A stretch of DNA of 64,000 bases from Methylobacterium sp. Leaf99 (GTDB lineage Bacteria; Pseudomonadota; Alphaproteobacteria; Rhizobiales; Beijerinckiaceae), in assembly GCF_001422375.1 (NCBI RefSeq), contig NZ_LMMU01000014.1:5464-69463 (forward strand), given 5' to 3'. Positions within the stretch are counted from its first letter, which is position 1, and each line of letters begins with the position of its first letter. Of this stretch, positions 33,628 to 36,826 are shown piece after piece. The position numbers and the translations under genes were made by a program. Under the pieces are notes generated by a model. That model was given only the letters and a program-made list of their open reading frames with translations, made no database searches and was not told where the DNA came from.

Positions 33628-35010
33628 ATGGGTGCAGCGACGACGACCACGACCGGGCGCAGTCTCACCGCCGTGGTGCTGGCCGCCGGCAAGGGCACGC
33701 GGATGCGCTCCGACCTGCCCAAGGTCCTCCACGCCGTGGCCGGGCGGACCATGCTCGGCCACGTGCTGGCCGCCGCCCGCGAGGCGGGGGCGACCCGCAT
33801 CGCCGTGGTGGTCGAGCCGGGGCAGGCGGCCGTGGCCCGGGAGATCGAACGGGCGGCGCCGGGCGCCGCGGTGTTTCCGCAGGCCGAGCGCCTCGGCACG
33901 GCCCATGCGGTCCTGGCCGCCCGCGAGGCCCTGGAGGCGGGCGCCGACGACGTGATCGTGGCCTTCGGCGACACCCCCCTCGTCACCGGCGCCACCCTCG
34001 CCCGCCTGCGCGCCCCCCTGGCCGACGGCGCCGCCGTGGCGGTGCTTGCCTTCGACTCCCCGAACCCCACGGGCTACGGCCGCGTGCTGACGCAGGGCGG
34101 ACGCGTCGTCGCCATCCGCGAGGAGAAGGACGCCAGCGGCCCCGAGCGGGCCGTCACCCTGTGCAATGCCGGCCTCATGGCCCTGTCGGGCCGGCACGCC
34201 CTCGATCTCCTCGGCCGCATCGGCAACGCCAACGCGGCGGGCGAATACTACCTGCCCGACGCCGTGGCCCTGGCCGTCGCGGACGGGCTCACGGTGGCCG
34301 TGGTGGCCGTGGACGAGGCCGAGGCCCAAGGGGTCAACGACCGGGTCCAGCTCGCCGTGGCCGAGGCTGAGATCCAGGGCCGCCTGCGCCGCGTGGCCCA
34401 GATCGGCGGCGCCACCCTCGTCGCGCCTGAGACGGTTTTCCTGAGCTTCGACACGGTGTTGGGCCGGGACGTTCTGGTGGAACCTCATGTGGTGTTCGGA
34501 CCCGGCGTCAGCATCGGCGACGGCTGCACGGTCCACGCCTTCTCGCACCTCGAAGGCGCGGCGCTGGCGCCGGGCGTAGAGATCGGCCCCTATGCCCGCC
34601 TGCGCCCCGGCGCGGTGCTGGAGGCGGGGGCCAAGGTCGGGAACTTCGTCGAGGTCAAGAACGCGCGCCTCGGCGCCGGCGCCAAGGCCAACCACCTGAG
34701 CTACCTCGGCGACGCCGAGATCGGGGCCGGCGCCAATGTCGGGGCCGGCACCATCACCTGCAACTACGACGGGGTGAACAAGCACCGCACCATCATCGGG
34801 GCGGGCGCCTTCATCGGCTCGAACACGGCCCTCGTCGCCCCCGTGAGCGTCGGGGCCGGGGCCATCGTCGGGGCCGGCTCGGTGATTGCGTCCGATGTCG
34901 CGGACGATGCGCTCGCCGTGGCGCGGGCGCGCCAGCGCAACCTCGCCGGCTGGGCGCCGGGCAAGCGCGCGGCTCTGGCCGCCGAGAAGGCCGCGCGCCA
35001 AAAGCCGTAA
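33628..35010 (+). CDS. glmU: bifunctional GlcNAc-1-P uridyltransferase / GlcN-1-P acetyltransferase
   Basis: A 460-residue cytoplasmic enzyme that makes UDP-GlcNAc. The N-terminal nucleotidyltransferase contains [18 protein letters not shown] (about 19-36), GDTPLV and YGRV. The C-terminal left-handed beta-helix (about 250-440) shows hexapeptide repeats, with [20 protein letters not shown] and the acetyltransferase motif [19 protein letters not shown]. All expected elements are intact. It is followed 151 bp later by glmS, the preceding pathway step. Confidence 0.95.
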
Positions 35011-35161: not shown

Positions 35162-36826
35162 ATGTGCGGAATCGTTGGCATCGTCGGACGGGACGCCGTG
35201 GCCGGGCAGCTCGTGGAAGCCCTGCGGCGGCTCGAGTATCGCGGCTACGATTCGGCCGGCATCGCCACCCTGACGCACGGGCGCCTCGAGCGGAGGCGGG
35301 CGGAGGGCAAGCTCGCCAACCTCGAGGCGCGCCTGCGCGACGAGCCCCTGGGCGGCGCCATCGGCATCGGCCACACCCGCTGGGCGACGCATGGGCGCCC
35401 CAACGAGACCAACGCCCACCCGCACGCCACGGCGCGGCTGGCCGTGGTCCACAACGGCATCATCGAGAATTTTCGCGAGTTGAAGGCCGAGCTGCAGGGC
35501 CTCGGCGTGCGCTTCGAGAGCGAGACCGACACCGAGGTCGTGGCCCAGCTCGTCAGCCACGCCATGGACGGGGGCCTCGGGCCCGTCGAGGCCGTGGCCG
35601 CCTGCCTGCCGCGCCTGCACGGCGCCTTCGCGCTGGGCATGGTCTTCGCCGGTTACGACGACCTGCTCATCGGCGCCCGCCACGGCGCGCCGCTGGCCAT
35701 CGGCTTCGGCCAGATGGAGGCAGGGATCGGTGAGACCTACCTCGGCTCCGACGCCCTGGCCCTGGCGCCGTTCACGGAGGAGATCACCTACCTCGAAGAG
35801 GGCGACTGGGCGGTCCTCAGCCGCGCCGGCGCCGAGATCCGCGACATCGACGGGCATCCGGTCACCCGCCAGCGCCAGCGCATCGTGGCGCAGGCCTACC
35901 GGGTCGAGAAGGGCAACCACCGCCACTTCATGGGCAAGGAGATCCACGAGCAGCCGGAGGTCGTCGGCCGCACGCTGGCCCATTACGTCGACCTCGCCAA
36001 CGGCCGCGTCGCCCTGCCGGCGGACCTGCCGTTCGACTTCGCCACGCTCTCGCGCCTCTCCATCACCGCCTGCGGCACCGCCTACTACGCCGGCCTCGTC
36101 GCCAAGTACTGGTTCGAGACCCTGGCGCGCCTGCCCGTGGAGATCGACGTCGCCTCCGAGGCCCGCTACCGCGAACCGCCCCTCGACCGCGACGGCCTCA
36201 CCCTGGTGATCTCGCAATCGGGCGAGACCGCCGACACCCTGGCGTCCCTGCGCTACGCCAAGGCCCAGGGCCAGCACACCCTGGCGGTGGTCAACGTGCC
36301 GACCTCCACCATCGCCCGCGAGGCCTCCGCCGTGGTCCCGACCCTGGCCGGCGCAGCACCGGCTCCACGGACTGGGGTGTCGAAGGCCCGCGACGTGCTC
36401 TATTTGGGGCGCGGCACCAGCTACCCGATGGCCCTGGAAGGCGCCCTGAAACTCAAGGAAATCAGCTACATCCACGCCGAAGGCTATGCGGCGGGCGAAC
36501 TCAAGCACGGCCCCATCGCGCTGATCGACGAGAGCGTCCCGGTCATCGTCATCGCGCCCCACGACGCGATTTTCGAGAAGACCGTGTCGAACATGCAGGA
36601 GGTGGCCGCCCGCGGCGGGCGCATCATCCTCATCGGCGACGCCAAGGGTGCCGCGGCGGCGGGCCTCGAGACCCTGGCGACGGTGACCATGCCCGACTGC
36701 GACCCGGTGGTGGCCCCCATCGTCTACGCCGTGCCGATCCAGCTCATCGCCTACCACACCGCCGTGTTCATGGGGAAAGACGTGGACCAGCCCCGGAACC
36801 TGGCGAAATCCGTCACGGTGGAATAG
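35162..36826 (+). CDS. glmS: glucosamine-6-phosphate synthase with internal deletion
   Basis: A 554-residue GlmS; the family is about 608. The glutaminase domain is intact (MCGIVGIVG with nucleophile Cys2, HTRWATHG, HNGIIENF). SIS1 begins normally (TACGTAYYAGL, ISQSGETADTLASLRYAK). After VVPTLAG (residue 397), the segment that normally reads EIGVASTKAFT and the helices that follow, about 60 residues, are absent. An AAPAPRTG junction (398-405) leads straight into SKARDVLYLGRGTSYP of SIS2, which is complete to the C-terminal NLAKSVTVE. The missing segment includes residues equivalent to E. coli Val399 and Ser401 at the sugar-phosphate site. Isomerase activity is therefore doubtful. The frame is preserved. 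An assembly artefact is possible. Confidence 0.9.
   Translation: MCGIVGIVGRDAVAGQLVEALRRLEYRGYDSAGIATLTHGRLERRRAEGKLANLEARLRDEPLGGAIGIGHTRWATHGRPNETNAHPHATARLAVVHNGIIENFRELKAELQGLGVRFESETDTEVVAQLVSHAMDGGLGPVEAVAACLPRLHGAFALGMVFAGYDDLLIGARHGAPLAIGFGQMEAGIGETYLGSDALALAPFTEEITYLEEGDWAVLSRAGAEIRDIDGHPVTRQRQRIVAQAYRVEKGNHRHFMGKEIHEQPEVVGRTLAHYVDLANGRVALPADLPFDFATLSRLSITACGTAYYAGLVAKYWFETLARLPVEIDVASEARYREPPLDRDGLTLVISQSGETADTLASLRYAKAQGQHTLAVVNVPTSTIAREASAVVPTLAGAAPAPRTGVSKARDVLYLGRGTSYPMALEGALKLKEISYIHAEGYAAGELKHGPIALIDESVPVIVIAPHDAIFEKTVSNMQEVAARGGRIILIGDAKGAAAAGLETLATVTMPDCDPVVAPIVYAVPIQLIAYHTAVFMGKDVDQPRNLAKSVTVE

Follow-up and report, generated by a model that had tools for sequence, protein, structure and literature searches.

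The glmS gene of Methylobacterium sp. Leaf99, as assembled, encodes a glucosamine-6-phosphate synthase from which the EIGVASTKAF segment of the isomerase half is missing. Judging from the sequence, this short glmS is almost certainly an artefact of assembly at a duplicated gene and not a real shortened enzyme, and the real situation is likely to be two ordinary full-length GlmS paralogues. The segment is probably missing from the assembly alone and not from the real gene, which is most likely a full-length glmS with a predicted role in making glucosamine-6-phosphate from fructose-6-phosphate and glutamine. We infer both that the real DNA contains the segment and which software step left it out. 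The window, which is the whole stretch of 64,000 nucleotides that was analysed, is part of contig C14 of a draft genome of 4.65 Mb in 14 contigs. The features discussed here are listed in Table 1.

Table 1 Features of the window around the glmS junction.
Feature	Position in window	Strand	Remarks
glmU, upstream neighbour of glmS	33628..35010	+	tblastn place of the GlmU frame; start codon chosen by us
glmS reading frame, as assembled	35162..36826	+	554 aa; net loss of 59 codons; TIGR01135 match in two stretches
Tract nearly identical to the C1 glmS	36185..36519	+	flanks the false junction on both sides
Foreign patch, 25 nt = G000:C10 89164-89188	36351..36375	+	fills the place of the expected 201 bp of glmS

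The predicted protein begins with MCGIVG and finishes with AKSVTVE, so that both ends are GlmS-like. Between them, the sequence runs from VVPTLAG, which ends at residue 397, through AAPAPRTG into VSKARDVLYLGRG. The original prediction described this junction and a loss of about 60 residues, and the 554-residue frame agrees with it. Compared with the second glmS copy of the same genome, on contig C1, 24 bp at window positions 36352-36375 stand in place of 201 bp (C1:1485481-1485681), which makes the window gene 177 bp, or 59 codons, shorter in net terms and keeps the frame. Against the NCBI glmS model TIGR01135, the protein reaches 681.4 bits (cut-off 418.05), with the match split into two stretches, of which the higher-scoring one extends to residue 398; the intact GlmS of a relative, G040, scores 780.7 bits in the same profile comparison. 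A glutaminase domain with an N-terminal Cys is present, as seen from the MCGIVG start and a GATase_6 score of 72.3 bits (cut-off 27), whereas the isomerase half is incomplete as assembled, the EIGVASTKAF segment being absent. The G040 protein, of 608 residues, can be aligned with E. coli GlmS over their full lengths. Its segment containing PEIGVASTKAF aligns to E. coli residues that include Val399 and Ser401 (Cys1 numbering, chain 2j6h, counted on the alignment), and the proposal that these positions and the motif fall in the lost part is thereby confirmed. According to the original prediction, these two residues would contact the sugar phosphate. In one article (PMC9272926), Val399 or Ser401 are given among docking contacts, and two of its passages describe them as non-crucial.

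The glutaminase half also shows a small variation in length. Around window positions 35711-35728 it is five residues longer than that of G040 (GFGQMEAGIGETYLG versus GFGEGETYLG). An equally long loop is found in the C1 copy (GFGQDELGTRETYLG), and the 613-residue GlmS of another relative, G035, matches window residues 1-398 without a change in length.

The letters at the junction come from elsewhere in the genome. The patch is an exact copy of a site on contig C10 that lies antisense inside a frame of 636 codons, which, on our reading of its translation, would be aspS, the gene of aspartyl-tRNA synthetase. The glmS letters stop at 36351 and restart at 36376, and zero bases are left unexplained; base 36351 is compatible with both glmS and the C10 source. 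About 5e-7 matches of 25 nt would be expected in the genome by chance, a figure that considers base composition alone, without codon structure. For scale, when the window is compared with 6-kb pieces from around the C10 and C7 sites, the next longest exact match has 18 nt, and in a comparison with an 18-kb piece of C1 it has 19 nt. There are no Ns within the window.

The second glmS is located at C1:1484291-1486741, which bears out the suggestion that another GlmS exists in the genome, and over its first 397 residues it shares 90% identity with the window copy. As assembled, it contains a 439-bp unit twice, a 145-bp unit twice and eight Ns, and its reading frame is broken by in-frame stop codons. 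One of its joins consists of 26 nt identical to C7:305649-305674; at the third join, near 1486292, a patch was looked for and none was seen. The scrambled stretch of the C1 gene is the same stretch that is broken in the window gene. To call the loss in the window a "clean" one was thus misleading, since the junction is apparently aspS sequence and the partner glmS is scrambled, with Ns and a second patch. As assembled, the genome has no intact gene at either of the two glmS places that were found (0/2), which is odd because GlmS is a normally needed enzyme.

The two copies lie in different gene orders, glmU-glmS on C14 in the window and glmS-glmM on C1. The latter is an extra pair, at C1:1484291-1488176 (L008 4292-8177), with a large gene carrying cadherin-like domains just upstream. 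Its GlmM scores 621.1 bits against TIGR01455 (cut-off 447.55), and a further glmM, at C1:6534-7871, is 84% identical to the glmM of the pair. As read from a flawed assembly, the real biology that is left over is this putative second glmS adjoining a second glmM on C1.

The identity between the window and C1 copies is unevenly distributed. In the first 900 alignment columns it is 77-87% in seven bins of 100 columns and 92-95% in two, while the next three bins reach 96-99%. Because the bins of 96-99% follow ones that mostly lie at 77-87%, the profile suggests gene conversion between the two paralogues, although the C1 sequence itself comes from a flawed assembly. Base by base, only two differences between the copies are found in 36185-36351 and one in 36376-36519.

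The positions of the Ns in the C1 copy are informative. In the extra unit, the Ns at 1485840, 1485846 and 1486177 fall on the only three differences between window and C1 in 281 compared columns; the chance of three out of three comparable Ns doing so is 2.7e-7. An N thus appears to denote a disagreement between the two glmS copies, as judged from three comparable cases. Four more Ns are situated in the 201-bp segment that is absent from the window, at 1485481, 1485484 and 1485529 in the left unit and at 1486098 in the extra unit. All four are at fourfold-degenerate third codon positions, which make up 46 of the 201 positions (chance 0.0025). The Ns differ between the C1 units, the three in the left unit standing opposite plain bases of the extra unit and vice versa, and the eighth N, at 1485781, lies at a join and has no bearing either way. 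If the Ns mark conflicting reads, the read data would hold two versions of the "missing" segment. A genome with a single version would give no cause for disagreement, so that the four segment Ns hint at two versions and are indirect evidence that the window glmS may really have the 201-bp segment.

In relatives the segment is consistently present. All 109 related loci, 29 from the genus and 80 named, cover at least 55 of its 58 columns; six of them spell the motif otherwise than EIGVASTKAF and still have 58 of 58 columns. The idea that close relatives might share the short form was not borne out at these loci. The nearest named loci are from Methylobacterium, e.g. Methylobacterium sp. Leaf91, with a best segment identity of 87%. 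The glmS genes extracted from seven relatives (G035, G040, G008, G019, G024, G036 and G010) encode 608 or 613 residues in 13 cases out of 13. The order glmU-glmS is found in G035, G040 and G008, and also at one glmS locus each of G019, G024, G036 and G010. G035, the best-scoring relative among the matches listed, has its 613-residue glmS behind glmU. Among the matches listed, no single match over residues 1-554 was found in the 40 other genomes of the genus or in the 297 other genomes of the family. These searches covered 41 and 298 genomes, respectively, including the own genome, and the two sets overlap. In the family search at most four candidates were scored per genome, and five of the 298 genomes were without a match. 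In the genus search, G022 (best E only 1.5e-13) and G030 (glmS fragments only, among the matches listed) say little, and in G001, G006, G015 and G028 glmS is partial or in fragments. A short GlmS form typical of the lineage was rejected, there being no relative with it among the matches listed.

Duplication of glmS is also seen elsewhere in the genus. G010, G019, G024 and G036 have two to four full-length copies each. In the first three the copies are nearly identical over most bins of 100 columns, as if by recent copying or homogenisation by gene conversion, with G036 (80-98%) as the exception. Besides two intact copies, G019 has two adjoining glmS fragments in opposite orientation (G019:C1:1303027-1303808), a possible pseudogene remnant. 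At least nine glmS fragments in four drafts of the genus (G001, G006, G028 and G030) start no more than 40 bp from a contig start. Therefore, glmS copies would seem to be a recurrent assembly problem in the genus, one that breaks other drafts too.

The proposed and most likely course of the error is as follows. Reads from both copies would have been merged by the assembler into a single repeat contig covering the shared tract, after which scaffolding and gap closing would have joined the flanks wrongly at both places. On C14, the middle of the repeat would have been skipped and the flanks bridged by 25 nt from aspS. On C1, the repeat would have been inserted again beside overlapping flanks, with one join made from 26 nt from elsewhere, and an N would have been placed where the two copies disagree. 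Such a course requires at least two near-identical copies at the break, and the tract on both sides of the junction has three differences in all; it also requires signs of error at the partner copy, which shows doubled units, Ns, in-frame stops and the C7 patch. Repeats are described as a cause of gaps, and some gap-closing methods as having high mis-assembly rates at gap-closing sites, in passages of one article (PMC9575681). We infer that exact foreign pieces of 25-26 nt at both loci are hard to obtain from biology and easy to obtain from faulty gap closing. What speaks against an artefact is that the junction keeps the frame, which is a coincidence expected in one case out of three, that the window is free of Ns, that the Ns of the two C1 units do not coincide and that no patch was seen at the third C1 join.

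Two biological explanations were considered. One is a real deletion in one of the two glmS paralogues, in which the break was end-joined with a 25-nt insert templated by aspS, the glutaminase domain being kept, the sugar-phosphate site being partly lost and the C1 copy being the active one. Repair of a break can leave a templated insert, as is known in general, a second glmS is present in the genome and the window frame is open throughout, all of which fit. However, the C1 copy is broken too, by in-frame stops and Ns, and an intact GlmS would require an assembly error there. In addition, the four Ns found within the missing segment speak for two versions of it in the reads, there is a second patch of like kind at C1, and the short form occurs in no relative among the matches listed. 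A real deletion is thus very unlikely. It is just as improbable that a short paralogue, deprived of its sugar-phosphate-binding segment and patched by aspS, would serve as a regulatory GlmS or as one that is a glutaminase only; the aspS patch, together with the Ns and the scrambling of the partner copy, led to the rejection of a real glutaminase-only GlmS. The other explanation is real recombination between the paralogues, by unequal exchange or conversion, which would have left one of them short and the other with duplicated parts. It would account for one copy short of a segment and another with extra units, and both paralogues do have the nearly identical tract in common. Yet the 25 nt from C10 and the 26 nt from C7 at the joins, and the Ns at paralogue differences, are left unexplained, and the gain at C1 (units of 439 and 145 bp) far exceeds the loss in the window. 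Recombination is extremely unlikely, and unequal exchange was rejected with two foreign patches left over.

Among the three options that accompanied the original prediction, assembly error is favoured over a glutaminase-only or inactivated copy and over a naturally altered enzyme. We are highly confident from these sequence comparisons that the short GlmS of the window would not be a real feature. The case is a warning that an open, in-frame and well-conserved "variant enzyme" can, in a draft genome, turn out to be a bridge that links repeat copies. As a general check, the junction letters can be searched elsewhere in the own genome, and the paralogue can be inspected for doubled units and Ns. 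A genuine short form would offer a natural experiment on what the GlmS glutaminase half does by itself.

The window gene can be compared with two known systems. With GlmS of the TIGR01135 family (E. coli structures 4amv, 2j6h and 1jxa), it shares the glutaminase domain with N-terminal Cys, both flanks of the isomerase half and the SIS2 end, but it differs, as assembled, by being without the EIGVASTKAF segment. With collapsed-repeat misassembly followed by faulty gap closing, from which no differing feature was seen in the assembled sequence, the locus shares a near-identical tract, false joins at both copies, foreign patches of 25-26 nt and Ns at the positions where the paralogues differ.
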